A DNA stretch of 38,235 nucleotides, from contig JAFXST010000017.1 of assembly GCA_017525475.1 (NCBI GenBank), forward strand, positions 1 through 38,235. Reading direction: 5' to 3'. The stretch comes from Kiritimatiellia bacterium (GTDB taxonomy: Bacteria; Verrucomicrobiota; Kiritimatiellia; RFP12; UBA1067). The notes under the pieces are model-generated. The model did not search any database. It was not told the origin of the DNA and saw only the letters and a program-made list of their open reading frames with translations. Shown here piece by piece: positions 13,484 to 31,809 of this stretch. The number at the start of each line of letters is the position of its first letter. The stretch's first letter is position 1. Made by a program: the position numbers and the translations under genes.

Positions 13484-13513
13484 TTGCCAAAGTTGGACAA
13501 AATTTAGTATAAT
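13484..13513 (+). promoter_or_regulatory. Promoter of the envelope-machine operon (leaderless)
   Basis: TTGCCA (13484-13489), an 18-base spacer and TATAAT (13508-13513), nine bases before ATG 13523. It would drive the TPR-ExbB-ExbD-ExbD-PA14-Lol run, because no other convincing promoter is seen until 22580. Confidence 0.75.
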
Positions 13514-13522
13514 ATATGCACC

Positions 13523-16500
13523 ATGGGTAACAAATATCTTTTGCTGGCCGCCTTGCTGGCGGCAGTAGCGCCCGTATGGGCGCAAGAGGCGCAGCCCGCC
13601 GCCCCGGCCGCCGAGCCGGAGGAACCGCAGGAAACGGCGGAGCAGAAAGCCGACCGCGAAGCCATGGAGAACGAAATCGCCTTTGTCGAGGCGCTCGTCT
13701 CCTACGGCTATCCCGATATCGCCGAGCCGGTAATCGCCGAAACCAAGAAGAAATGGCCGCAGTCCGAGGCCGGATTTTTCGCCATCGAAGTGCGCGGCAT
13801 GCTCTCGATGAACAAGTTCGACGAGGCCGAGAAGCTCATCGCCTCGCTGCCCGACCGCAAGGGCTCCAAATACTGGGCGGCGCGGCTGGAAGTGGCCAAC
13901 AACTACTTCGGGCGCAACCAGAAGGAAGAGTGCATGAAGATCTACGACGAGTTCTTCCAGACCTTCCCCAAGCCGCCCAAGGGTCTCGAAAAATTTTACG
14001 TCGACGCCGGCTACGCCTACGGACAGATTCTCTCGCAGGCCAAGAACTACGACAAGGCCTCGGACGTGTACGGCAAGCTCCTGCCCAATTTGACCGGCAA
14101 GAACTGGCTGTCGCTCGCCACCGAATACTGCGATATGCTCATGCGCGTGGCGGAGAACTGCACCGACAAGGAGAAGGCCAAGCGCGACCAGGCGCTCAAC
14201 ACCGTGGGCAATACGGTGGACAAGCTCATCGCCCAGAGCGGCGACAACGCGGTGCTGTTCGGCCGCGCCATCGGCATGAAGGCGCATCTGGAACAACTTA
14301 AAGGCAACATCAAGCGGGCCAACCTCATCATCGAGGAATTCAAGCCCGAGCTGATGGATATCGACGACCAGATCCGCGAGTCCGATCCTGAAGGGCGGCT
14401 GGGGCTCCTCAAGATTTCGCCCCTCCCCGAGGTGATGTACCTCCAGGCCAAGATGCTGTGGGAAGAGGCCAAGAAGGAATACGCCAACCCCAAGCGCAAC
14501 GACGATCAGGTGAAGAACTACATGTTCGGCGAGCGCGACGAGAGCGGCAAGCGCGACGGCATCGGCGCGTTCAACCTGTCGCTGGCGGTGTACACCAATT
14601 TCGAAATGTCGCCCTGGGCGCCGCTCGCCGGCGAACTCGCCGAGGAAGTGCGCCAGTTTGCCGAGGAGAAGTACGAGGCCAAGATCAAGACCAAGATCAC
14701 CGCCGAGCAGATCGCCCGCGTGCGCGCGGCGCAGTTCAAGACCGCCAAGGACAAGTTTTTGGCGCAGGAGTTCTTGCCCGCCATCGCCGACTATATGGAC
14801 GTGCTCGCCAAGTATCCCGAGCTGGAAGAATCGGTATACGCGGTGCAGAACGTGATCTACAGCTATCTCGACGCGATCAACGACGAGCCCAACGCCGACC
14901 TCAAGGCCGAGTATCGTGACAACGCCGACGCGATCGAAGGGTATCTGGCCGAGCGCTTCGCCGGCAGCGCCGACAATGTGATCATGACCACGGCGGGCAA
15001 CGCGGTTTTGGCCTGCGCCGGCAAGGAACTGGAGCGCGGCGAGGCCGAGCGGGCCGACCGGCTCTTCACCTGGTTTGTCGTCAACTACCGCAATCACGTT
15101 AAGGCCCCGTCGATCGCGGCCGGCAAGGGCGGCGAGATGTCCAAGGCCGGGCGGCTCGAGGACTCCATCCGCTACTGGCGCTACGTGGAGGAATACTACG
15201 CCAACTCGCAATTCTATTCGGCGGCGCTGCTGCAGCTGGCGCAGTGCTACGACAAACTCGGCAACCGCGACGAGGCCAAGAAGTACTACAAGGCGTATCT
15301 GCCGTCGGAGAAGAGCCCGGCCAACCAGAGCGTGGCCAACATGCAGCTGGCGCAGATGTACCAGAAGGACGGCCAGGACATGCTCAACGGCAGCGAAGAG
15401 GCGGAGACCGAAGAGGCCAAGAACGAAGCCGTCAAGAAGGGCATGGTCCAGATCATCTACGCCATCAAACAGTTCAACGACCTCGCGACGCAGGCGGAGG
15501 CGGGGCTCGGAGACCAGCGTTTGACCGAGGCCGAGCGCAAGACTTTGGCGGAACTGAGGGAAGGCTCGCTCTTCCTCGCCGGGCAGTGCCGCGGGCGTTT
15601 GGGGCAGATCCTCAAGAAGATCGGCCGCATCGAGCTGAGCGACAAGCAGATGGCCGCCTCGGCCGAGGCTTACGACGCGTATCTCGCCGCCTATCCGCAG
15701 GGCAAGTACGCCAAGTCGGCCTATGTGCAGCAGGGCACCATCTACACGGCGCTAGGGCAGCTCGACAAATCGAAGGAGGCGCTCGACAGGCTCTCGCGCG
15801 CGTTCCCCGATTCCGAGGAGGCCAAGAACGCCAAGCCGCACCTCGCCAAGTCGCTCATCGAGATGGGCATGAAGCGCGAAGGCACCGAAATCTACTCCGA
15901 GATGCTCCGCACCAGCGGCTCCTACACGCCGCAGCAGTTCGTCTCGGCCGGCGAGGCGCTGATCGAGGCCAAGAGCTGGGATCTGGCCAACCAGGCGTTC
16001 GAAAAGGCCATTCAGCTGGCGGGCACCAACTATCCGCAGACCGTGGCCAAGGCGCGGCTCGGCGAGGCCAGGAGCGCCTACAAGCAGAATTCGTTCGCCG
16101 AAGCGCGCGAGGCGCTCGATATCTTCCTGCAGGATCCCAAGATGTCCAAGATGGCGATCGCGGCCGACGCCAACTTCCTGTTGGTGGAAGTGGCCAAGGA
16201 GCAGGGTCGCCACGAGAAGGACGAAACGATGCGCGGCAAGTACTTCGGCGCGGCGGTGGGCGCGCTCAAGAAGGTGCGCACCTACTGGGCCAAGAAGCCG
16301 CAGTGGGAGCAGGACCAGCTCGACCTCCTCTCGGGCGACGTGCTCGTGGACCGCATGAAAGCGGAACTCTCAATGGACCTCAAGGAGGAAGCGGCGGAAA
16401 CGCGCGGACGCGCGGCGGCCACCTTCCAGGTGTTCATCCAGGCGCACGGCGTGACCGAGGAGCATCCGTTCGACAAGATGGAGCAGGGCGAGAAGGACAA

Positions 16501-16696
16501 CCTCGAGCGGGCGTACGGCACGCTGCTGCCGCTGTTGGCCGACCAGATCGCCGACAAGCAGGACCCGGAGGAGAAGCGTACGCAGGCCGGGCAGGTGATC
16601 AAGTTCGCCGAACAGTACATGCAGCTCTTCCCGGCCGGCAAGTACGCCGCCCCGATCGGCAACGCCATGAACAGCGCCAAGGCCGACCTCAACTAA
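13523..16696 (+). CDS. Large exported TPR-repeat protein
   Basis: The 1057-residue protein starts with a signal peptide (MGNKYLLLAALLAAVAPVWA, cleavage likely after residue 20), followed by a short Ala/Pro/Glu-rich stretch, then helical repeats throughout. Clear tetratricopeptide-like units include AALLQLAQCYDKLGNRDEAK (about 565-585), AYVQQGTIYTALGQLDKSKE (about 731-750), and repeats to the C-terminus, which ends KADLN with no membrane anchor. This predicts a periplasmic scaffold. It is first in the operon, 24 bases before a second exported protein, then ExbB/ExbD. YbgF-like TPR proteins accompany Tol systems, so an analogous coordinating role is inferred; this protein is about four times larger than YbgF. 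The ATG lies nine bases after the -10 with no ribosome site. Confidence 0.88.
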   Translation: MGNKYLLLAALLAAVAPVWAQEAQPAAPAAEPEEPQETAEQKADREAMENEIAFVEALVSYGYPDIAEPVIAETKKKWPQSEAGFFAIEVRGMLSMNKFDEAEKLIASLPDRKGSKYWAARLEVANNYFGRNQKEECMKIYDEFFQTFPKPPKGLEKFYVDAGYAYGQILSQAKNYDKASDVYGKLLPNLTGKNWLSLATEYCDMLMRVAENCTDKEKAKRDQALNTVGNTVDKLIAQSGDNAVLFGRAIGMKAHLEQLKGNIKRANLIIEEFKPELMDIDDQIRESDPEGRLGLLKISPLPEVMYLQAKMLWEEAKKEYANPKRNDDQVKNYMFGERDESGKRDGIGAFNLSLAVYTNFEMSPWAPLAGELAEEVRQFAEEKYEAKIKTKITAEQIARVRAAQFKTAKDKFLAQEFLPAIADYMDVLAKYPELEESVYAVQNVIYSYLDAINDEPNADLKAEYRDNADAIEGYLAERFAGSADNVIMTTAGNAVLACAGKELERGEAERADRLFTWFVVNYRNHVKAPSIAAGKGGEMSKAGRLEDSIRYWRYVEEYYANSQFYSAALLQLAQCYDKLGNRDEAKKYYKAYLPSEKSPANQSVANMQLAQMYQKDGQDMLNGSEEAETEEAKNEAVKKGMVQIIYAIKQFNDLATQAEAGLGDQRLTEAERKTLAELREGSLFLAGQCRGRLGQILKKIGRIELSDKQMAASAEAYDAYLAAYPQGKYAKSAYVQQGTIYTALGQLDKSKEALDRLSRAFPDSEEAKNAKPHLAKSLIEMGMKREGTEIYSEMLRTSGSYTPQQFVSAGEALIEAKSWDLANQAFEKAIQLAGTNYPQTVAKARLGEARSAYKQNSFAEAREALDIFLQDPKMSKMAIAADANFLLVEVAKEQGRHEKDETMRGKYFGAAVGALKKVRTYWAKKPQWEQDQLDLLSGDVLVDRMKAELSMDLKEEAAETRGRAAATFQVFIQAHGVTEEHPFDKMEQGEKDNLERAYGTLLPLLADQIADKQDPEEKRTQAGQVIKFAEQYMQLFPAGKYAAPIGNAMNSAKADLN

Positions 16697-16720
16697 AACA
16701 TTTATCAAGGAGTACCAACA

Positions 16721-17479
16721 ATGCGTAAAAGTCTTTTTGCAATCGCGCTGGCCGCCGCCGCGGCCGAGGCGCTGGCCGTGCAGGGCACCATCGTGACCGA
16801 CGCCACCTCGATGACCGGCGACATCGTGTACCAGCGGCGCACCAACTCGTACGAGGTGTCGTACAAGAAGGGCAACACCATTCTCAAGGCCGAATACCCC
16901 CTGGGCGAAGTGGTGCGGCTCGACATCCCCAAGCCCGCCGGGTTCGACAAGGCGGTGGAGGCGGTCAACAACGGCCAGGGCGCGAGCGCGCTGCCGACGT
17001 TGAACAAGATCGTCAAAGAATACTACATGCTCAACTGGGACAAGACCGCCGGGCGGTATCTGGCGCTCGCCTACGTGGCGGCCGGCCAGGCGCAGCAGGG
17101 GCTGGACGTTTGCCAGGGCATCATCAACGCCGACAAGACCGCGGCCTATACCGGCCCCATCGCCCCGGCCTACTGGACATGCCTCATGAAACTGGGCAAG
17201 ACCGACGTCCTGCAGCGCAACCTCGACAAGGCGGCGAGCTCGGGCGACCGCGCGGCTTCGGCGGCGGCGCTCATCATGCGCGGCGACATGATCATGGACG
17301 CCGGCGGCGACAAGCCCGACAACGTCAAGCAGGCGCTGCGCGACGGTTATCTGAGGGTGGCGCTCATGTACGGCGATTGCCCCGACGAGCGCCGCGAGGC
17401 GCTGCTCAAGGCCGCGGGCTGCTTCGACAAGCTCGGGCAGGCGAGCCGCGCCGAGCGTCTGCGCGCCCAGACCAAGTGA
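16721..17479 (+). CDS. Exported helical-repeat protein
   Basis: The 252-residue product has an N-terminal signal peptide (MRKSLFAIALAAAAAEALA, cleavage around 19). A small beta-rich region follows (about 20-65, QGTIVTDATSMTGDIVYQRR to the EVVRLDIPKP segment), then TPR-like helices with paired aromatic/Ala positions (YLALAYVAAGQAQQGLDVCQ and later repeats). AAGGAG sits before the ATG and the gap to the preceding TPR gene is 24 bases. A periplasmic partner of the large TPR protein and of the ExbB/ExbD motor is likely from position. No specific family recognised. Confidence 0.82.
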   Translation: MRKSLFAIALAAAAAEALAVQGTIVTDATSMTGDIVYQRRTNSYEVSYKKGNTILKAEYPLGEVVRLDIPKPAGFDKAVEAVNNGQGASALPTLNKIVKEYYMLNWDKTAGRYLALAYVAAGQAQQGLDVCQGIINADKTAAYTGPIAPAYWTCLMKLGKTDVLQRNLDKAASSGDRAASAAALIMRGDMIMDAGGDKPDNVKQALRDGYLRVALMYGDCPDERREALLKAAGCFDKLGQASRAERLRAQTK

Positions 17480-17526
17480 TTTAACCCAACCATCTCCTAC
17501 CATATAACCAAAAGGAAAAAACCAAC

Positions 17527-18339
17527 ATGAACAAGATCAAGAAGACACTCATGGCGGCGGCGGTTCTCTTCGGCACCTGCGTCGCACCTATGGCCGCGCT
17601 CCAGAGCTTTGGACAGGAGCTCACCGACGCCTCGGGCAACGCGGTATCGGACAACGCCACGCAGCAGCAGGGCAGCGGCGGCTTCTACGACATCGTCTTC
17701 GGGTCGGGCCTCGTGGGTACGCTCCTGTGGTTCGTGCTCTTCGGCGACGGCGCGTTCGTGATTTACTTCGCCATCGACTCCTCGATCATGATCAAGCCCG
17801 AGAAGCTGATGCCCAAGAAGCTGATGGATCAGGTCCAGGCCGCCATGGCCGAGGGCGATATCGTCAAGGCCATGCAGGCGTGCGAGGCGAGCCCCAGCGC
17901 CATGAGCTCCATCGTGATGGCGGCGTTCCAGCACGTTGAAGAGGGCTTCGACGTGATCCAGGAAGCGGTGACCGCGGCTTCGGATCTCGAGCAGGAGAAG
18001 ATACAGCAGCGCCTCAACTGGATTTCGGTGTGCGGCAACCTCGGCCCGTCCTGCGGTCTATTGGGTACCGTGCAAGGCATGATCCTTACCTTCCAGGCGC
18101 TCGCTTCGGGCGGCGCTGGCGATGCGTCGGCGTTGGCCAACTCCATCGGCCAGGCGCTGTGGACGACCGCCGGCGGTCTGATCGTGTCGATTCCGGCCGT
18201 GACCATCTTCTACGTGCTCCGCAACAAGGCCAACCGTCTGGTGCTCCGCATGACCGCGGTGACGATGGAACTCCTCAACGGCCTGCGCCAGGTGAGCGTG
18301 GAGCCCACCGCCGAGGAACTGGAGCCGGTCGAAGCCTAA
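17527..18339 (+). CDS. ExbB/TolQ/MotA-family proton-channel protein
   Basis: Family members form the inner-membrane pentamer that, with ExbD/TolR, turns proton flow into mechanical work on the envelope. The 270-residue protein begins with a signal-peptide-like hydrophobic stretch (about 7-25), a short Gln/Ser-rich periplasmic segment, TM1 (about 60-82), a cytoplasmic helical domain, TM2 in WISVCGNLGPSCGLLGTVQGMILTF (about 164-188, the conserved GLLGTVxGMI) and TM3 in LWTTAGGLIVSIPAVTIFYVL (about 214-234, with the conserved Thr pair). The extra N-terminal segment is absent from E. coli ExbB. Ribosome site AAGGA. It is directly followed by two ExbD genes. ExbB versus TolQ cannot be separated by sequence alone. 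Confidence 0.92.
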   Translation: MNKIKKTLMAAAVLFGTCVAPMAALQSFGQELTDASGNAVSDNATQQQGSGGFYDIVFGSGLVGTLLWFVLFGDGAFVIYFAIDSSIMIKPEKLMPKKLMDQVQAAMAEGDIVKAMQACEASPSAMSSIVMAAFQHVEEGFDVIQEAVTAASDLEQEKIQQRLNWISVCGNLGPSCGLLGTVQGMILTFQALASGGAGDASALANSIGQALWTTAGGLIVSIPAVTIFYVLRNKANRLVLRMTAVTMELLNGLRQVSVEPTAEELEPVEA

Positions 18340-18363
18340 GGCAACGCCAAGGAAACTCTCAAG

Positions 18364-18852
18364 ATGGCACGAAAGCCACAAGAGAATCCCACGCTCGACA
18401 TGACGCCGATGATCGACGTCGTGTTCGAACTCATCATCTTCTTCGTGGTGACGCTTACCGAAGCGCAGAAGAAGGACGAGTCCATCGAGCTTGAGGATGG
18501 TCAGCATGGCATCATTCTGACCCCCGAAGAACTGCCGCCCACCCACATGATGATCGACATCGGCCTCAGGAAAGACGGCCGGGCGCGCATCTCGATGGGC
18601 GACCGCGACATAACCCCCGACGAAATCGGCCGACGGGTCAAGGAAAAGTTCCGCAAGATCGGGGAATTCCCCGTGATGATCCGCGCGGACTTCGAATGCC
18701 CGCATGGCGCCGTGGCGCAGGTTATGAACGCCTGCACCGCCAACGGAATCTGGAAGATTTCGTTCGTGGCGGTGGGCGAGGACAAGACCTCCAAGCCGGG
18801 CAAGCCCGCCCGCGAACGACTTGAGCGGATCAAGAGAAGGGGAGGTTTCTGA
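18364..18852 (+). CDS. ExbD/TolR-family protein, first copy
   Basis: The 162-residue protein has a short cytoplasmic tail, one membrane helix in TPMIDVVFELIIFFVVT (14-30) with the proton-carrying Asp18, and a periplasmic domain with the ExbD pattern (MMIDIGLRKDGRARISMG, then VMIRADFECPHGAVAQVMNAC). A second acidic residue, Glu22, lies four positions after Asp18, on the same helix face. The C-terminus is longer and more basic than in the second copy (RERLERIKRR). AAGGAAAC precedes the ATG. Its stop overlaps the start of the second ExbD gene by one base. Confidence 0.92.
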   Translation: MARKPQENPTLDMTPMIDVVFELIIFFVVTLTEAQKKDESIELEDGQHGIILTPEELPPTHMMIDIGLRKDGRARISMGDRDITPDEIGRRVKEKFRKIGEFPVMIRADFECPHGAVAQVMNACTANGIWKISFVAVGEDKTSKPGKPARERLERIKRRGGF

Positions 18853-19268
18853 TGGCACGCAAACCTCAAGAGAATCCGGCGCTCGACATGACGCCGATGA
18901 TCGACGTGGTGTTCGAGCTCATCATCTTCTTCGTGGTGACGATCAAGCAGGAGGACCTGTTCTCCAAGCTCAACGCCAACCGCCCGGCCCCGTCGAGCGG
19001 CTCGTCGAGCAGCAACGAATCGGACACCACGGTGAACATCGAGATCACCCGAGGTCTTGGCGGCAGCCCCAACGGCACCATCGTCTACAACCGGCGCACG
19101 GTCAAGCTGGCCGAGCTCAGCAAAAACCTCAAGGAGGTGGCGCTCACCTCCAAGAAGACGCCCATCATCATCAAGTGCGCGGTGGATTCGCCCCACAAGG
19201 CGCTGGTGGACGTGCTGGACGCGTGCTACGGCAACGGGCTGTTCAGCGTAAGTGTCTTCACCATGTAA
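18852..19268 (+). CDS. ExbD/TolR-family protein, second copy
   Basis: The 138-residue protein shares 29 of its first 30 residues with the preceding ExbD (Thr10 there is Ala here), including Asp18 and Glu22, but its periplasmic domain is quite different. After the helix comes a Ser-rich linker (SSGSSSSNES), then NGTIVYNRRTVKLAELSKNL and PIIIKCAVDSPHKALVDVLDAC, the usual ExbD core. GGGGAGG lies just upstream inside the first copy. Two ExbD chains with the same membrane helix but different outer domains suggest a heterodimer inside one ExbB ring, as inference. Confidence 0.92.
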   Translation: MARKPQENPALDMTPMIDVVFELIIFFVVTIKQEDLFSKLNANRPAPSSGSSSSNESDTTVNIEITRGLGGSPNGTIVYNRRTVKLAELSKNLKEVALTSKKTPIIIKCAVDSPHKALVDVLDACYGNGLFSVSVFTM

Positions 19269-19281
19269 GGAGACTTTCGAC

Positions 19282-20718
19282 ATGAGCGAAGAATACGAAG
19301 AATACGAGGAAGGCCAAGAGCTGACTGCCGAGGAGATCTTCGAGCAGCATCAGGCCGAGATCGCCGAGCGTTTCGAGGAAAAAGGCTTCTTCAAGCGCAT
19401 GGGCATACTCTTCGGCGGCATCGGCAAGCCCCACAACACGCGCGAATACAAGCTCGCGATGACCGAGCTGCAGCGGTTGCAGGCGCCGATTCTTGCCATT
19501 CTGCTGCCGACGCTGGGTGTGATCGTGCTGATCGTCCTCACCGCCGTTTCGGCCAAGTCGCGCGATACCATCCAGGTGGAAATCGCCCGCGCGCAGGAGG
19601 CCGAGGACGCTCTCGAGGAGGAGACGCCCGAGGACGAGCCCGAAGAGATCGACATGACGCAGGACATCGACGTGACGGTCGACGTGGCGGTGGACGTGCC
19701 CAACGTCACCACCGAGGTGGCGGCGCAGTCGCCCACCCCGGGCGGCGAGCCCGACACCGTGATGGCCGCCCCCAGCCCCGTGACCATGGCCAACATCAAG
19801 GGTTCGCCCAAGATGCGCGGCCTCGGCGATGGCGACGGCTTCGGCGTGCAGATCAAGGCCGGCAAGGTGCAAGACCTCAACGGCGCGCTGATCGGCATCA
19901 TCATGGATATGAAGACGGCTCCAGATCCTGCGAACCCCAAGGGTAGGGATCTCGGCTACAACGGCTGGGGCAACTTCAAGGAGCGCATGAAAAAGTGCAT
20001 CCAGGGCAACTTCAAGCCGGCGGCGTGTTCGCACATCCGCACCTTGCCCAAGCGCGTGGCCTTGAGCAGCCTCTTCATCCCGGTGTGTCCGGCCGCGAAG
20101 GGCCCGGAAGCGTTCGGTGTGGGCGACCTCGTGGAGCCCAAGGGCTGGGTGGCCTACTACTCGGGCGAAATCACCGCCACCGAGAAGGCGCGCTACCGCT
20201 TCTGGGGGTACTTCGACGACTACATGCTCATCCGCCTCAACGGCAATACGGTGTTCGAATGGAACTGGCCGTGCAACGACCTCCGCTACGCGGGCGCCTG
20301 CACCGACTGGAAACCAAAAGATCCCGAAACGGTCAAGCTCATCGGCAAGTACAAGGCCGCGCAGCACTCCACCGCCATGGCGCCCAGCGACTGGTGGGAG
20401 GTAAAGCCCGGCCAGAAACTCAAGATCGAGATCGCCTGCAGCGAAGTGCCCGGCGGCGCTTGCGGCGGGCTCCTCTGTATCGAGAAGGAGGGAGACAAGT
20501 ACGAGATGAATGCGGGCCAGCCCGTATTCCCGATTTTCTCCACGCGCAAGCTCTCCTTCACCGAGACCGAGCGTTTCGAAAAGGCAAAACCGTCCTACGG
20601 CGGCTTCACCTACAAGATCGGCACCGAGAAGGTTCCGCTTTTCAACTCGCGCAAGCCCACCAAGGAATCGAAGGCCCGCGAAAAGAAAAACCAGGTCGAA
20701 GTCGAGGTCGACATCTAA
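19282..20718 (+). CDS. TonB-position membrane protein with a PA14-like domain
   Basis: The 478-residue protein starts at ATG 19282 (AAGGAG upstream); an in-frame earlier ATG at 19252 lies inside exbD and lacks a ribosome site. Layout: a very acidic cytoplasmic tail (1-68, EEYEEYEEGQ and similar), one membrane helix (about 69-89), an acidic stretch rich in Glu, Asp, Pro and Val (100-160), a Gly-rich segment, and a beta-rich domain (about 285-400) containing WVAYYSGEITATEKARYRFWGYFDDYMLIRLNG split over neighbouring strands, which resembles PA14 carbohydrate-binding domains. Gene order is that of TonB or TolA, but I see no TonB C-terminal domain. The inference is that it transmits force to, or senses, glycans. 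PA14 assignment is moderate. Confidence 0.8.
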   Translation: MSEEYEEYEEGQELTAEEIFEQHQAEIAERFEEKGFFKRMGILFGGIGKPHNTREYKLAMTELQRLQAPILAILLPTLGVIVLIVLTAVSAKSRDTIQVEIARAQEAEDALEEETPEDEPEEIDMTQDIDVTVDVAVDVPNVTTEVAAQSPTPGGEPDTVMAAPSPVTMANIKGSPKMRGLGDGDGFGVQIKAGKVQDLNGALIGIIMDMKTAPDPANPKGRDLGYNGWGNFKERMKKCIQGNFKPAACSHIRTLPKRVALSSLFIPVCPAAKGPEAFGVGDLVEPKGWVAYYSGEITATEKARYRFWGYFDDYMLIRLNGNTVFEWNWPCNDLRYAGACTDWKPKDPETVKLIGKYKAAQHSTAMAPSDWWEVKPGQKLKIEIACSEVPGGACGGLLCIEKEGDKYEMNAGQPVFPIFSTRKLSFTETERFEKAKPSYGGFTYKIGTEKVPLFNSRKPTKESKAREKKNQVEVEVDI

Positions 20719-20724
20719 GCCTTG

Positions 20725-21954
20725 ATGAAGTTCGCGCTTTTCCTGGCTCTCAAATACCTCAGACCGAAGCGCTCTGTCGCTTCGGTCATCACGTGCGTAA
20801 GCGTTTTGGGAGTGATGCTGGGCGTGGCCGCGGTCATCATCGTCCGCTCGGTGATGACCGGCTTCGGCGACACCTGGGAGGAGAAGATCCTCGACTTCAA
20901 GCCCCATATTTCGCTCGTCAGCTGGCAGGGCGGCGCGGCGGTGGCCGGCGAGGACGGCATCGCCAAGGAACTCCGCAGGCTTGACGGCGTAATCTCGGTG
21001 ACGCCCGAGATCGACACCCGCGTGATGCTGGCGTACCGCGGCAGGGTGCTCGCGCCCGTGATCCTCGGCATCGACGCCGACGAGTTCATCCGCGCCTACC
21101 GGGTGGGCGCGCCCAAGGCGGGCGAGTTCGACCTGGACGGCGACAAAGTGGTGCTCGGCGTCCACGCCGCGCGGCAGCTGGGGGTGGAAGTGGGCGATGA
21201 GGTAACCGTCTACAGCCCCAAGACGCTCCTCGCCAAGGACGAGATCTACCTCCCCGTGAAGTGGAAGGTGTCGGGCATCTTCGCGTGCGGCCAGTACCAG
21301 TACGACTCGGGCTATATCGTCGCCTCGCTCGCCAACGTGCGAGAGCTGATGGGCATGGAGCGGGGCGTTTTCGCCATCCACGTCAAGACCGCCGAACCCA
21401 CCGACGAAAAGCGCTTCTCCGCGCTGTGCGCCGAAATCGCCCGCAAGTTCCCCAACCTGCGCCAGATCACCTGGCGCGAGGCGGACAGCGAGCTCTTCAA
21501 CGCGCTCGCGGTCGAAAAAAACATGACGGCACTGCTCCTCTCGCTCATTTCGCTGGTGGCGGTATTCTGCGTAATGAATACGCTCTTGGTGCTGACGGTG
21601 CAGAAGACGCCGGAAGTGGGGCTCTTGAAAGCGCTCGGATTCTCCAAGGGGCAGATCATGAGCGTATTCGTGGTGCACGGCATGATCCAGTGCACGGCGG
21701 GTATCGTGCTCGGGCTCTTGGCCAGCTGGGCGATTCTCGCCAATCTGCAGAATATTGTCGAATATCTCGCCAAGCTCGGGCTGGAGGTGTTCCCCGCCTC
21801 GGTGTACGGGCTCGCCGCGATTCCCCACCGGCTGATCGTGGGCGACATTTTCTGGGTGGCGGCGCTTGTATTCGTGTTCGGACTTCTGGCGTCGCTCATC
21901 CCCGCCATGCTCGCCGCCCTCAAGGACCCCGTAAAAGCTTTGAGCCAACAATGA
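20725..21954 (+). CDS. LolC/LolE-type lipoprotein-releasing ABC transporter permease
   Basis: This is the membrane subunit of an ABC transporter of the FtsX/MacB permease family, most like LolC/LolE, which extract outer-membrane lipoproteins from the inner membrane. The 409-residue protein has TM1 near the start (about 20-45, SVASVITCVSVLGVMLGVAAV), a large periplasmic domain (about 45-265) and three C-terminal helices (around VAVFCVMNTLLVLTV, GIVLGLLASWAILAN and FWVAALVFVFGLLASLIPAM). The ending ALKDPVKALSQQ is typical of the family. I prefer ATG 20725 to the TTG directly before it. Only one permease gene is present, so a homodimer is likely. The stop overlaps the ATPase gene (ATGA). Confidence 0.9.
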   Translation: MKFALFLALKYLRPKRSVASVITCVSVLGVMLGVAAVIIVRSVMTGFGDTWEEKILDFKPHISLVSWQGGAAVAGEDGIAKELRRLDGVISVTPEIDTRVMLAYRGRVLAPVILGIDADEFIRAYRVGAPKAGEFDLDGDKVVLGVHAARQLGVEVGDEVTVYSPKTLLAKDEIYLPVKWKVSGIFACGQYQYDSGYIVASLANVRELMGMERGVFAIHVKTAEPTDEKRFSALCAEIARKFPNLRQITWREADSELFNALAVEKNMTALLLSLISLVAVFCVMNTLLVLTVQKTPEVGLLKALGFSKGQIMSVFVVHGMIQCTAGIVLGLLASWAILANLQNIVEYLAKLGLEVFPASVYGLAAIPHRLIVGDIFWVAALVFVFGLLASLIPAMLAALKDPVKALSQQ

Positions 21955-22583
21955 AAGTGGTACTGGGCACCATCGACATCTCCAAGACCTTCCGCATCCC
22001 CAAGGGGCCGCGCATCGAGGTGTTGAAGGGCGTCAATCTCGCGGTAGCGCCGGGCGAAAAGGTGGCGATCATCGGGCGCTCGGGCGCGGGCAAATCGACG
22101 TTGCTCAATATCTTGGGCGGGCTCGAAAAGCCGACGGGCGGCACGGTGACCAGACCCAAGAACATCGGCTTCGTGTTCCAGGCGTACCATTTGATGCCGG
22201 AACTTACGGTGCTGGAAAACGTGCTCCTGCCGGCCATGGCCAAACGCGCCGGGGGGCTGGTGAGCGTCGAGACGCGCGCGCGGGCCGAGGAACTTCTGGA
22301 GCGCGTGGGCCTCAAAGACCGCATGAATCATTTGCCGGGAGAACTGTCGGGCGGCGAAATGCAGCGCGTGGCCCTCTGCCGCGCGCTCGTGACCAATCCC
22401 GAGCTGGTGCTGGCCGACGAGCCGACCGGCAATCTCGACAAATTGACCGGCGCCGAGATTCTCAAAGTGCTGGGCGATCTTTCGCGCGGGACGCCGGTGG
22501 CGCTCGTCATGGTTACCCACAGCCCCGAGGCGGCCGCCATCTGCGACCGGGTGCTGACGCTCGAAAACGGAGTTCTCCATTGA
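21951..22583 (+). CDS. lolD: LolD-type ABC transporter ATPase
   Basis: The ATPase subunit powers the adjacent LolC/E-type permease. The 210-residue protein has Walker A GRSGAGKST, the Q-loop in GFVFQAYHLMPELTVLENV, the ABC signature LSGGEMQRVALCRAL, Walker B LVLADEPTGNLD and the switch His in VMVTHSPE. The QAYHLMPELT wording and the LADEPTGNLD motif fit the LolD/MacB/FtsE group. Overlapping stop and start codons with the permease gene show a coupled pair. Position right after the ExbB/ExbD genes suggests that lipoprotein export and the force-transducing machine are expressed together. Confidence 0.92.
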   Translation: MKVVLGTIDISKTFRIPKGPRIEVLKGVNLAVAPGEKVAIIGRSGAGKSTLLNILGGLEKPTGGTVTRPKNIGFVFQAYHLMPELTVLENVLLPAMAKRAGGLVSVETRARAEELLERVGLKDRMNHLPGELSGGEMQRVALCRALVTNPELVLADEPTGNLDKLTGAEILKVLGDLSRGTPVALVMVTHSPEAAAICDRVLTLENGVLH

Positions 22584-22608
22584 TTTTTCCGTCAGGATAT
22601 GGTATAAT
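22580..22608 (+). promoter_or_regulatory. Promoter of the phosphomannomutase gene
   Basis: TTGATT (22580-22585), 17-base spacer, TATAAT (22603-22608) in the GGTATAATA context. Unlike the leaderless promoters here, 31 bases separate it from ATG 22640 and the leader carries AGAAAGG as ribosome site. Confidence 0.75.
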
Positions 22609-22639: not shown

Positions 22640-23986
22640 ATGAGCATCTTCAAAGCCTACGACATCAGAGGCATCTACGGCCAGGATCTGGACGAGGCCA
22701 TCTTCTACAAGATCGCCCGCGCCTACGTGCGCTTTGCCAAGGTCAAGAAGGTGGTGGTCGCGCGCGACTGCCGCAAGTCGTCCGACAGTCTCTTTGCCGC
22801 TTTCGCCAAGGGCCTCAACGACGAAGGCGCCGATGTGATCGACGTGGGGCTGGCCTCCACGCCCATGAGCTATTTCGCCAACGCCACGCTCCATGCCGAC
22901 GGCTCGGTGATGATCACCGCCTCGCACAACACCAAGGAGTGGAACGGCTGCAAGCTCTGCCGAGCCAACGCGGTGCCGATTTCGGGCGCCACCGGCATCA
23001 AGGACATCGAGGGGATCGTCATGGCCATGCCCGACAACGAGCCGCCCGCGGGCACGGGTACCGTGACCAAGGTGGACATCTCCGAGGCCTACGGCGAACA
23101 CGTGCGCAAGTTTGCGCATCTCGCCCGGCCGATTCGCGTGGCGATGGACTTCGCCAACGGCATGGGCATCGCCGAGGCGGCGGCGTTCAGGGGGCAGGAC
23201 AAACTGGCGCACGACGATCTATACGGCGAATACGACGGCGACTTCCCCAACCACGACGCCAACCCGCTCCACACCGAGACCTTGAAGGATCTGCAGGCGC
23301 TCATCCGGGCCAATCCCGGCAAGTACGCGTTCGGCGTGGCGTTCGACGGCGATGCCGACCGCGCCGGCTTCGTCGACGAGAAGGGCGACATCATCCCGAT
23401 GGATTTCACCACCGCGCTCATTTCGCAGGACCTGCTCAAGTCCAACCCGGGCGCCGTCTGCTTCTACGATTTGCGTTCCACCAAGATGGCCGAGGAGACG
23501 ATTCTCGCCGCCGGCGGCAAGCCGATGATGTCGCGCGTGGGGCACAGCTTCATCAAGGCGCAGATGCGCGAGAACGATGCCATCTTCGCGGGCGAACTCT
23601 CCGGCCACTACTACTTCAAGGCCAACTCCACGGCGGAGTCGAGTTCCATGGCCACCTACGCGCTCGCGAATATCGTTTCGGCGTCGGACAAGCCGCTTTC
23701 GGAGTTGATCGCCCCCTTGCGCAAATACAGCCAGTCGGGCGAAATCAACACCAAGACGGTTACGCCCCCGGCCGAGATCCTCGCCAAGATCAAGGAACTG
23801 TACGCGGCCAAGGCCAAGGTGTTCGAGCTCGACGGCGTGAGCGTTGACGCGTGGGACACGGAAGGCTACTGGGCGAACGTGCGCATGTCCAACACCGAGC
23901 CGCTCGTCCGCCTCAACCTCGAGGGCAAGACCCCCGCAATCATGGAGCAGAAGCGCGATGAATTTCTGGCAATCATCCGTAGCTAA
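22640..23986 (+). CDS. Phosphomannomutase / phosphoglucomutase
   Basis: The enzyme interconverts hexose 1- and 6-phosphates (mannose and/or glucose), feeding GDP-mannose and glycan synthesis. The 448-residue protein has all four alpha-D-phosphohexomutase domains: AYDIRGIYG at the start, the phosphoserine loop TASHNTKEWNG with Ser95, the magnesium loop DGDADR (about 236-241), the sugar loop GELSGHYYFK and the phosphate loop MSNTEPLVRL near the C-terminus. GELSGH is typical of PMM/PGM of the AlgC type rather than phosphoglucosamine mutase, which has a different sugar loop. The C-terminus overlaps the following lipoprotein gene by 29 bases. Confidence 0.92.
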   Translation: MSIFKAYDIRGIYGQDLDEAIFYKIARAYVRFAKVKKVVVARDCRKSSDSLFAAFAKGLNDEGADVIDVGLASTPMSYFANATLHADGSVMITASHNTKEWNGCKLCRANAVPISGATGIKDIEGIVMAMPDNEPPAGTGTVTKVDISEAYGEHVRKFAHLARPIRVAMDFANGMGIAEAAAFRGQDKLAHDDLYGEYDGDFPNHDANPLHTETLKDLQALIRANPGKYAFGVAFDGDADRAGFVDEKGDIIPMDFTTALISQDLLKSNPGAVCFYDLRSTKMAEETILAAGGKPMMSRVGHSFIKAQMRENDAIFAGELSGHYYFKANSTAESSSMATYALANIVSASDKPLSELIAPLRKYSQSGEINTKTVTPPAEILAKIKELYAAKAKVFELDGVSVDAWDTEGYWANVRMSNTEPLVRLNLEGKTPAIMEQKRDEFLAIIRS

Positions 23987-25103
23987 AGTCGCCGCCGCCA
24001 CGCTGGCGGCAGCGGTGTTCGCTGGGTGCGATTCGGGCACGGGCCTCAAGGAGCTTGCCGAATCCCAGGCGGCCTACGCCCGGCGCGATTTGCGCACCGC
24101 CGACAAGGCGGTGTCCAAGTCGCTCAGGTGCAACCCCAAGAACGTGGACGCACTCCTCCACGCCACGCGCGTGCAACTGGAGCTGGGGCATATCGCCGAG
24201 GCGCGCAAGCTCGTGACGCGCGCGGCGGAACTGGAGCCGGAGGCCAGCGACGTTTTGCTTACCGACGCGGAAGCGGCCTATATCGCCAAGGACTACGCCA
24301 CCGCCATGCGCGACTACCGGAGCGTCGCGGATGACGGCCTGCAGCCGCCCGAAATCCGGGCGCAGGCCCTGGCTGGCATCGGGGTGGTGCAGATGTCGGT
24401 CAACGAGTTCGATATGGCGCGGGTGGCGCTCCTCAAATCGTTGCGGCTCGACCGCAAGAATCCGGCGGGCTGGTACCACCTGGGGCTTTTGTACCGCGAT
24501 GGCTTTGGCTATCACGAGGCGGCGCTGGAGGCGTTTGACATCTACGTGCGTCTGGAGCCTACGGCCGACGTGCGCGTCCAGAAGGTGCAACGCTCCTACA
24601 TCCCCGACATCAAAGAGACCATCGCCCGCAAGGCGGCTTCGCGCCCCGGCGCTTCCCAGCGCGACAGCGAAAAGTCCGCGAGTCTCCTCCAGGAGGCCGA
24701 AGCGTTGCAGTCCAAGGCGCAGTACCGTAGCGCCCGCAAGAAGTTCGAGGAGGCGCTCGCCGCCGATCCCTTGAGCTACAAGGCGGCGCTGGGCCTGGGG
24801 GGTGTAATCCCCAAAACCGACAAGACGCCGGCCGGCGCCAAGAAACAGCTGGAGGTGTATACCACCGCCTGCAAGCTCCAGCCGGGCAGCACCGCCACGC
24901 TACTTTCCACCGCCAATCTCGCCGCGCGGCTCGGCTTCCACGCCTCCGCGCTCGACCTTTATTCGCGGGCGCTGGCCACCGATTCGGCCAACCTGACCGC
25001 GCTTGACGGGCTGATCAAGGCCATCAAGAAGGTGGGCGGCAAAAACGATATCGCCGCCGCTTATCAGGAATACCGCGGCGAGTTGGCGAGCAAGCGCCAA
25101 TGA
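23958..25103 (+). CDS. TPR-repeat lipoprotein
   Basis: The 381-residue product begins with a lipoprotein signal: hydrophobic AAATLAAAVFAGC with the lipidated cysteine at position 24, followed by Asp25. In E. coli, Asp at that position keeps lipoproteins in the inner membrane; whether that holds here is unknown. The rest is helical TPR repeats (AAYARRDLRTADKAVSKSL; ADAEAAYIAK-type units; NPAGWYHLGLLYRDGFGYHE; AQYRSARKKFEEALAADPLS; SALDLYSRALATDS in part). ATG 23958 is chosen because it starts the lipobox and lies within the end of the mutase gene. An assembly or scaffold role is inferred. Confidence 0.87.
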   Translation: MNFWQSSVAKVAAATLAAAVFAGCDSGTGLKELAESQAAYARRDLRTADKAVSKSLRCNPKNVDALLHATRVQLELGHIAEARKLVTRAAELEPEASDVLLTDAEAAYIAKDYATAMRDYRSVADDGLQPPEIRAQALAGIGVVQMSVNEFDMARVALLKSLRLDRKNPAGWYHLGLLYRDGFGYHEAALEAFDIYVRLEPTADVRVQKVQRSYIPDIKETIARKAASRPGASQRDSEKSASLLQEAEALQSKAQYRSARKKFEEALAADPLSYKAALGLGGVIPKTDKTPAGAKKQLEVYTTACKLQPGSTATLLSTANLAARLGFHASALDLYSRALATDSANLTALDGLIKAIKKVGGKNDIAAAYQEYRGELASKRQ

Positions 25104-30594: not shown

Positions 30595-31809
30595 ATGGCG
30601 AGAAACGCAACAAAAACAAAACAGACAAAAAGCAGACACAATGCAAGAGGTCACGGCTTTTTGTACCAGCGCAACGGAATATGGTATCTCCGTATACAGC
30701 GCAACAACAAACGCATCACCGTTAGCACCGGCACCACCTCGCGCGAGGAGGCCGAGGCGTTCGCCCAGCGCATGGCTATACCGGCCCAAGGGCTCCAGGA
30801 GCGGGAAGCGATCCGCAAGCTGCAGCAGCGGCTTATCGCGACCTTATCCGACCAAGCCGACGCGATAAAGCTGGCAACCATTCCGATCGGACAACTCTAC
30901 CCCCTGTTCCGGGAATCAAAAAACCGGCGCCCCGTGGGCACGCGCACCCTGGCATCCTATGAAGGACAGTTCAACCAGTTCGCCAAATTCATGGCCGCGC
31001 GCCACCCGGAAATCCGCAACTTGCGCGACGTTAGCCAAACCGTCGCCGACGAATACATAGAATGGCGCCAAAAACACGGCAAGAGCGCGTCCTCGCTGAA
31101 TAAGGATATGAATCTGTTCGCCTACGCCTGGACGCTCCTAGGGCCGCGCTACGGCCTAGAATACAATCCCTGGACAAAAGACAAGATGGCGCGAGCCAAA
31201 TGCCGCCAGATCCGCCGCGAGCCGCTTACCCGCGACGAGTTCGAGCGCGTCTGGCGCCTGGCGTCCACATGGGAACGCTGCTTCATGGGCCTCAACTACC
31301 TCGCCGGCTACTCCCTCATCGACATCACCATCATGCGCTGGGACTCGATAGACCTCCCCCGCAAATGGATCTCGATCAATCGCCACAAGTCCGGGATCCC
31401 CGAAAACGTCCCAATCCCAGACCGATTGGCCGACATCCTCGCCGTCTGGCGCCGCGAATCGGCCCCCTGCAACGAATACGTATTCCCCGATCAAATCCGC
31501 ATGCTCAAGCCCGACCACGACACCGAGCGCCTTTCCCGGCACTTCTCGCGCCTGTTCGAGCTCGCGGGCATAAAGACCTACATCATCGTCAACGGCCGAC
31601 GCTACCCCTACAAGACCTTCCATTCCGGACGCCATAGCCTGGCCACCAACATGATGGCCGCCGGCGTCCACCCGTTCCTGATCCGCGAAACCCTGGGGCA
31701 CAGCGTCATGGCCACCACCATGCACTACACTCACATCGGCGAAGCGCAAATCCGCGCAGCGCTAAACGCGGCCGCCGGCACCGTCCTGCCTGCGCCATCG
31801 AGATACTAA
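30595..31809 (+). CDS. Tyrosine recombinase / phage-type integrase
   Basis: Integrates and excises the element at its attachment site. The 404-residue protein has a Lys/Arg/Thr-rich N-terminus, an arm-binding region (GHGFLYQRNGIWYLRIQ, about 19-46), a core-binding SAM-like domain (about 100-190) and a catalytic domain. Visible catalytic residues are Lys265 (NRHKSG), His343 and Arg346 (HSGRH), His369 (LGHS) and the nucleophile Tyr378 (MHYTHI). The first catalytic arginine, expected in a TGLR-like motif, is Ser240 (AGYSLIDITIMRW). Similar loss is known in Bacteroides-type integrases such as IntDOT. AAAGGAG precedes the ATG. The adjacent tRNA-Tyr and opposite-strand phage genes support an integrated element. 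Confidence 0.92.
   Translation: MARNATKTKQTKSRHNARGHGFLYQRNGIWYLRIQRNNKRITVSTGTTSREEAEAFAQRMAIPAQGLQEREAIRKLQQRLIATLSDQADAIKLATIPIGQLYPLFRESKNRRPVGTRTLASYEGQFNQFAKFMAARHPEIRNLRDVSQTVADEYIEWRQKHGKSASSLNKDMNLFAYAWTLLGPRYGLEYNPWTKDKMARAKCRQIRREPLTRDEFERVWRLASTWERCFMGLNYLAGYSLIDITIMRWDSIDLPRKWISINRHKSGIPENVPIPDRLADILAVWRRESAPCNEYVFPDQIRMLKPDHDTERLSRHFSRLFELAGIKTYIIVNGRRYPYKTFHSGRHSLATNMMAAGVHPFLIRETLGHSVMATTMHYTHIGEAQIRAALNAAAGTVLPAPSRY

Follow-up and report, generated by a model that had tools for sequence, protein, structure and literature searches.

Operons with the gene order TPR-TolQ-TolR-TolR that encode force transducers ending in a vWA domain were described in 2025 from bacteria of the PVC superphylum (Planctomycetes-Verrucomicrobia-Chlamydiae), for example Tichowtungia (PMC12204202). 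In Myxococcus, the AglRQS motor combines one ExbB-like and two ExbD-like subunits and works with the TPR proteins GltD/E and the TonB-like protein GltG; paired with Nfs, it moves glycan around spores and is the best-studied machine of similar make-up (PMC3169522, PMC3858216). The Fibrobacter succinogenes cluster FSU_2396-2403 (OmpA-TPR-TPR-x-ExbB-ExbD-ExbD-TonB) is more abundant on cellulose (PMC6851124). TonB and TolA themselves dock on their motors through a Ser-3x-His-6x-Leu-3x-Ser (SHLS) motif and hold their partners by strand exchange (PMC12905483). In this study, we analyzed a 38,235-nt stretch of DNA, referred to here as the window (JAFXST010000017.1; contig C41 of the incomplete genome G000, GCA_017525475.1, 1.32 Mb, 82.9% complete), from an uncultured gut member of the Kiritimatiellae, the named relatives of which are of rumen and gut origin. 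Positions 13523 to 22583 of the forward strand carry eight genes, TPRA, TPRB, ExbB, ExbD1, ExbD2, TRD, LolC, and LolD, which overlap or are separated by gaps of at most 47 nt, in agreement with a preliminary description of this DNA. Pfam or NCBIfam profiles support every gene of the run except TRD, which encodes a transducer whose distal PA14-fold domain has taken the place of an ancestral alpha/alpha toroid. We consider it fairly likely that the products of the locus form a force machine that spans the envelope, runs on protons, and belongs to the TolQR/ExbBD/AglRQS class, with a PA14 end that takes hold of a glycan, or of a glycosylated partner, on the periplasmic side.

Such a system is already known from its vWA-ended version (PMC12204202), with which the window locus shares the core gene set and order, the position of the transducer gene downstream of the TPR, TolQ-like, and two TolR-like genes, and, in the AlphaFold2 model, the succession of transmembrane helix, disordered linker, and globular C-terminal domain. 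One further locus of the phylum (L201) has homologues of TPRA, TPRB, and ExbB followed by a vWA end. The preliminary description stated that classical Tol-Pal or TonB loci do not have this set, which is true; however, a TPR-ExbB-ExbD-ExbD-transducer set with vWA ends had already been published from the superphylum (PMC12204202). Unlike those transducers, TRD ends in a PA14 domain (a toroid in most relatives), has a transmembrane segment that lacks the SHLS motif and its histidine, and has kept a C-terminal beta tail. With AglRQS-Glt/Nfs, the locus has in common one ExbB-like and two distinct ExbD-like subunits, a TonB-like transducer, exchangeable output complexes, and, by description, exported TPR proteins; in contrast, TRD has neither the cytosolic FHA domain nor the TonB_C domain of GltG, and no genes resembling gltF/H/I/J were seen in the window operon. 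The Fibrobacter cluster, compared by description only, is similar in gene order and in coming from a ruminal bacterium but has a TonB-family arm. The Tol-Pal and ExbBD-TonB systems share the ExbB/ExbD motor family and the transducer topology, whereas two ExbDs are present here and the window genome has no TolB, TonB_C arm on this transducer, or plug receptors. The literature searched, with most subscription journals outside reach, gave no report of arms of this kind that end in a toroid or a PA14 domain, and a search of the open-access literature on mucin uptake by Akkermansia yielded nothing usable on this locus; as far as searched, these ends and their exchange are undescribed, as are the retention of the tail and the missing docking histidine.

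The transducer and the exchange of its distal domain

TRD has a TonB/TolA-like topology, with a positively charged cytoplasmic N terminus, one transmembrane (TM) segment, an acidic disordered linker, a folded domain, and a short tail (Table 1). An AlphaFold2 model built from seven sequences had a mean predicted local distance difference test (pLDDT) score of 64, a value lowered by the inclusion of the disordered linker; scores were mostly 60 to 94 in the folded domain and about 82 to 94 over residues 290 to 430. The top Foldseek matches of this domain were all PA14 sugar-binding domains, the best of which was an adhesin (6m8m; E = 8e-7; TM-score, 0.61 on the target; 12% identity). In seven PA14-type proteins, D312 and N320 were invariant and D313 was Glu in one; judged by sequence, D312-D313 lies at the position of the calcium-binding DcisD motif of PA14 lectins, with N320-G321 at the usual spacing. 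The fold and the DD motif are shared with lectins such as the MpAFP and Epa/Flo adhesins, at the low identity given above; however, their domain sits on a surface adhesin, whereas that of TRD is periplasmic and on a motor-linked arm. The preliminary description had a PA14-type protein with an outer domain in the position of TonB: the fold stands, but the domain lies in the periplasm and not outside the cell.

In most relatives, the position of the PA14 domain is occupied by a 375-aa alpha/alpha toroid, recognized from weak Pfam matches to squalene-hopene cyclase (best E = 1e-6), matches in the PDB at 6e-7, and Foldseek matches to squalene-hopene cyclase, GH76, sugar epimerases, prenyltransferase beta, and complement TED. 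The PA14-type and toroid-type transducers have their N-terminal part and last seven residues in common. In its cytoplasmic and TM segments, respectively, the window TRD was 70% and 74% identical to a toroid-type protein (L035), which is on a par with its identity to its PA14-type sisters (L053 and L054) and exceeds that to the PA14-type proteins L055 (55% and 63%) and L086 (52% and 37%); the nearest match of L055 itself in these segments was a toroid-type protein (L062; 75% and 89%). Over residues 160 to 188, the window TRD was 72% identical to the PA14-type L086 and at most 38% identical to toroid types. These segment identities place the break in the linker, at about residues 115 to 125, and show that the exchange left the motor-facing end native. 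Comparison of the window with L051 gave a dN/dS ratio of 0.12 for the whole of TRD, 0.05 for residues 1 to 92, and 0.15 for the PA14 part, which indicates that the swapped-in domain is under constraint.

A quick tree of the operon (ExbB, ExbD1, ExbD2, TPRA, and LolC) put the PA14 loci in two places with full support, and a single origin of the operon-borne PA14 type was rejected (approximately unbiased test, P = 1e-69); a short N-terminal TRD tree, which included the co-swapped linker, did not reject a single origin. Two changes are needed to account for the operon tree: either the swap took place twice, or it took place once and was reversed. Whole operons may also have been exchanged between lineages. 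The PA14-type protein was found in 12 of the 145 genomes of the order to which the window belongs. Half of these 12 had the PA14 type alone, in the motor operon every time; the other six had a toroid-type protein alongside, which was in the motor operon in four (G008, G009, G045, and G390), and two genomes with both types (G343 and G333) had no motor on the visible contig. From this distribution, PA14-type arms occur as extras and have also come to occupy the main position. Several TRD genes stand alone, at a distance from every ExbB or ExbD gene (L076-L080, L086, L087, L190, and L034), and some of these encode a PA14 end. No toroid remnant was found beside the PA14-type genes; what fills the gap in L055 is an open reading frame (ORF) unrelated to the toroid. 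In this horse-gut lineage, an extra exported or anchored protein is encoded between the PA14-type transducer and LolC (L055:10363-11297), and in another locus a frameshift, either an assembly error or a pseudogene, splits a toroid-type transducer (L064:8890-10598).

Most transducers of the phylum, regardless of their distal domain, end in the tail [DE]-[IV]-x-V-x-[VI]-x-[IL] or a close version of it. Given the strand exchange of TonB and TolA, it is reasonable to suggest a docking role for this tail. It was not found in Akkermansia-like tandem copies: in two complete genomes (L154 and L155), presumably of Akkermansia, toroid-type transducer genes lie in tandem, away from any motor gene, and their products lack the tail.

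Conservation of the operon and its relation to Lol and Ton functions

Within the genus, the order TPRA-TPRB-ExbB-ExbD1-ExbD2-TRD was almost invariant, with LolC-LolD next in most loci, and the first six genes were found in unchanged order in other families, orders, and classes of the same phylum (L142-L161 and L198-L208). A gene order not conserved in relatives would have refuted the preliminary description by its own terms; for these six genes, the order is conserved. At E ≤ 1e-3, TPRB orthologues were detected in 126 of the 194 genomes of the phylum, the weaker matches being partial TPR matches in longer proteins. The presence of two different ExbD subunits was borne out: Pfam ExbD matched twice, and ExbD1 and ExbD2, which are 39% identical overall and 91% identical across the first 32 residues, form two separate lineages, with ExbD1 first in 48 of 52 loci. 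The proton-binding Asp of ExbD is retained, as are the channel threonines, the TM1 Trp, and the TM3 Pro of ExbB. A Gln at the Glu176 position of the ExbB pore was dismissed as a special feature, since this position varies across the family and in other motors. TRD lies immediately 3' of ExbD2 in most loci, and four core loci have no adjacent TRD (L198, L203, L205, and L207). In L203, the place of the transducer is taken by a kinase-like protein that bears a TM segment at its C terminus (L203:5378-6556, minus strand).

The preliminary description made the Lol pair an integral part of the machine, and it can be envisioned that the motor helps lipoproteins released by LolCD to reach the outer membrane or insert into it. 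LolC-LolD starts 3 nt after TRD without a promoter of its own, and most loci in the family of the window have this linkage, with a lolC that overlaps TRD in three loci (L052, L057, and L089). However, LolC followed TRD in none of the 11 operons outside this family that had enough downstream sequence (L142, L143, L145, L146, L148, L150, L152, L153, L156, L160, and L161), and even in the genus three loci had no such link (L056, L061, and L067). Each genome had one full-length LolC, a housekeeping copy that in genomes outside the family lies apart from the motor operon. Since LolCD is attached only in one family and LolC is single copy, LolCD is ruled out as a core component; it is a passenger or late addition, a family-level neighbor that is no part of the machine, and a lipoprotein-handling motor is highly improbable.

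The window genome has three more ExbDs, on contigs C7, C52, and C30. The protein on C52 combines an SxxxH TM segment and a linker rich in Pro and Lys with a C terminus that resembles TonB_C at a score below the cutoff; by these features, it is a putative TolA/TonB-like arm with its own motor. The C7 transducer (L101:5115-6752, minus strand) has an SxxxH TM segment and a vWA-like domain and lies beside its own ExbB-ExbD and a TPR gene; by reading, it would be of the published vWA type, with which the PA14 type appears to share this genome.

The topology of TRD and its beta tail, which resembles strand-exchange docking, would also suit a TonB-type importer with an unrecognized outer membrane receptor in place of TonB-dependent receptors, and the cellulose-associated Fibrobacter cluster (PMC6851124) lends this idea some weight. 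On the other hand, there was no TonB-dependent receptor plug domain in the window genome or in its two closest relatives (G017 and G022), no TonB_C match on TRD, with the TonB_C-like matches of the genome located elsewhere, and the TolA/TonB-like protein on C52 is separate. Absence from the window genome alone is weak evidence given its incompleteness, but G017, at 91%, agrees. We regard an importer of this kind as unlikely. The preliminary description had also called for a search for tolB and pal elsewhere in the genome. TolB was found neither in the window genome nor among ten genomes in which controls were detected. There was no Pal beside the operon; the only OmpA-family gene of the window genome is on contig C4, and OmpA/Pal-type genes numbered one per genome in six of seven genomes tested and two in G045. 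The analysis supports the proposed envelope machine as one of its own kind, neither Tol nor Ton, with two ExbDs and a PA14-ended protein in the position of TonB.

Transcription unit and flanking features

The -10 element upstream of TPRA lies only 9 nt from its ATG, so the TPRA mRNA would be leaderless or nearly so, as had been proposed. A promoter match of at least 9/12 was found 5' of TPRA in 17 of 25 loci, with identical spacing in 13 of the 17, and in none of the 25 was there a promoter-like site before LolC. A single promoter for the run is consistent with these data, with the correction that the downstream phosphomannomutase (PMM) gene has a promoter-like site of its own, which likely marks the end of the eight-gene unit. 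The scan as a whole returned 4 promoter-like sites, where 2.4 would be expected from shuffled sequence; the weight of these sites therefore rests on position and conservation and not on their number. After the PMM gene, a TPR lipoprotein is encoded at positions 23931 to 25103, a neighbor retained in L051, L057, and L062, and the translation of positions 30595 to 31809 reads like a tyrosine-recombinase-type integrase.

Table 1. Positions of the operon, its promoter-like sites, and the segments of TRD in the window
Feature	Position	Strand	Basis
Promoter-like site TTGCCA-18-TATAAT, 11/12 consensus	13484..13513	+	Sequence; spacing shared with relatives
TPRA, exported TPR protein, 1057 aa	13523..16696	+	Pfam TPR E 2e-15; NCBIfam YbgF/BamD-like TPR under cutoff; signal peptide by reading; phylum-wide orthologues
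TPRB, exported protein, 252 aa, weak TPR signal	16721..17479	+	Profile match; orthologues in phylum
ExbB/TolQ-type proton channel subunit, N-terminal extension	17527..18339	+	Pfam MotA_ExbB 7e-26; alignment
ExbD1, TPMIDV motif (proton-binding Asp)	18364..18852	+	Pfam ExbD 4e-19; motif
ExbD2	18852..19268	+	Pfam ExbD 3e-21
Transducer TRD (P0001), 478 aa; N terminus cytoplasmic, other segments in the rows below	19282..20718	+	
TRD TM segment, residues 66-92, APxxAxxxP	19477..19557	+	AlphaFold2 model; alignment
TRD disordered linker, residues 93-190, with the swap junction at about 115-125	19558..19851	+	AlphaFold2 model; segment identities
TRD PA14-fold domain, residues ~203-434	19888..20583	+	AlphaFold2; Foldseek to PA14 lectins E 8e-7
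Asp312-Asp313, DcisD spacing (DDxxxxxxNG)	20215..20220	+	Seven-protein alignment
C-terminal beta tail VEVEVDI	20695..20715	+	Sequence comparison
LolC/LolE-type permease	20722..21954	+	NCBIfam lolCE 2e-78
LolD-type ATPase, overlaps lolC	21954..22583	+	NCBIfam 3e-62; sequence
Second promoter-like site, 10/12, before PMM gene	22580..22608	+	Also present in L051

Proposed motor contact and work of the machine

In the force-driven machine that we favor, ExbB and the ExbD1-ExbD2 pair would form the inner membrane motor, on which the single-pass TRD would dock through its N terminus and TM segment. The disordered linker would carry TRD across the periplasm, so that the exchangeable domain works at the far side; TPRA and TPRB would be exported partner proteins, and the conserved beta tail a likely docking peptide for a conserved partner. 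With a PA14 lectin-type end in place of the alpha/alpha toroid, the machine would most likely pull or hold a periplasm-facing glycan or glycosylated partner, a glycan being the leading guess from the fold alone. The kept ExbD Asp and ExbB Thr, the conserved gene order, the TonB/TolA topology, the order of ExbD1 before ExbD2, the PA14 fold with its DD motif, the constraint on the PA14 part, the motor-facing end left native by the swap, and the AglRQS-Glt/Nfs precedent (PMC3169522, PMC3858216) argue for this reading. So do distant orthologues, since the TM segments of distant toroid-type TRDs (L151, L152, L153, L156, L157, and L160) contain GPxxSxxxH, with Leu at the correct distance (SxxxH-6x-L) in L152, L153, and L156. 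The stand-alone TRDs L076-L080, L086, and L087 fit an arrangement in which several arms share one motor.

Several observations weigh against this reading. In the order to which the window belongs, the Ser and His of the SHLS motif are replaced by Ala and Pro; docking of the window TRD on ExbB may therefore differ or be lost, which is the main weakness of a force transducer. TRD had no family match in Pfam or NCBIfam and did not reach the PA14 gathering score (PF07691), with E = 0.067, below the cutoff, for L034. Moreover, PA14 domains bind proteins too, and an outer membrane partner of TRD is putative. The altered motif, together with the TRDs found far from motor genes and the core loci without an adjacent TRD, would suit a static tether or regulator that sits beside the motor, with ExbD1 and ExbD2 acting on peptidoglycan themselves, as MotB does. 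However, the TM1 Trp and TM3 Pro of ExbB, which belong to the docking network (PMC12905483), are retained, the constraint on TRD is strongest in its first 92 residues, and TRD directly follows ExbD2 in most loci. We consider a static TRD possible but doubtful, and continue to favor a force-driven arm.

These findings bear on what is gripped by arms that resemble TonB and TolA but are neither. We tentatively propose, as a possibility that we would rate well short of probable, that the far end of the arm is an exchangeable glycan-specificity module and that Verrucomicrobiota motors of this type pull or sort glycans (peptidoglycan or outer membrane or surface polysaccharide) and not receptor proteins; lineages would retarget the machine by toroid, vWA, and PA14 swaps at the linker, with a common docking tail kept and, in the window's order, contact with the motor made although the classical histidine is missing. 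The locus provides a natural domain-swap experiment on a fixed motor, apparently performed twice, which sets the half of the arm that binds the motor apart from the half that binds the target and points to a small conserved tail as a partner site. It also offers a soluble PA14 domain for which the ligand is directly screenable, and a lineage that has lost the docking histidine, a residue supposed to be essential. These results suggest that such motors change their job by the exchange of one domain.

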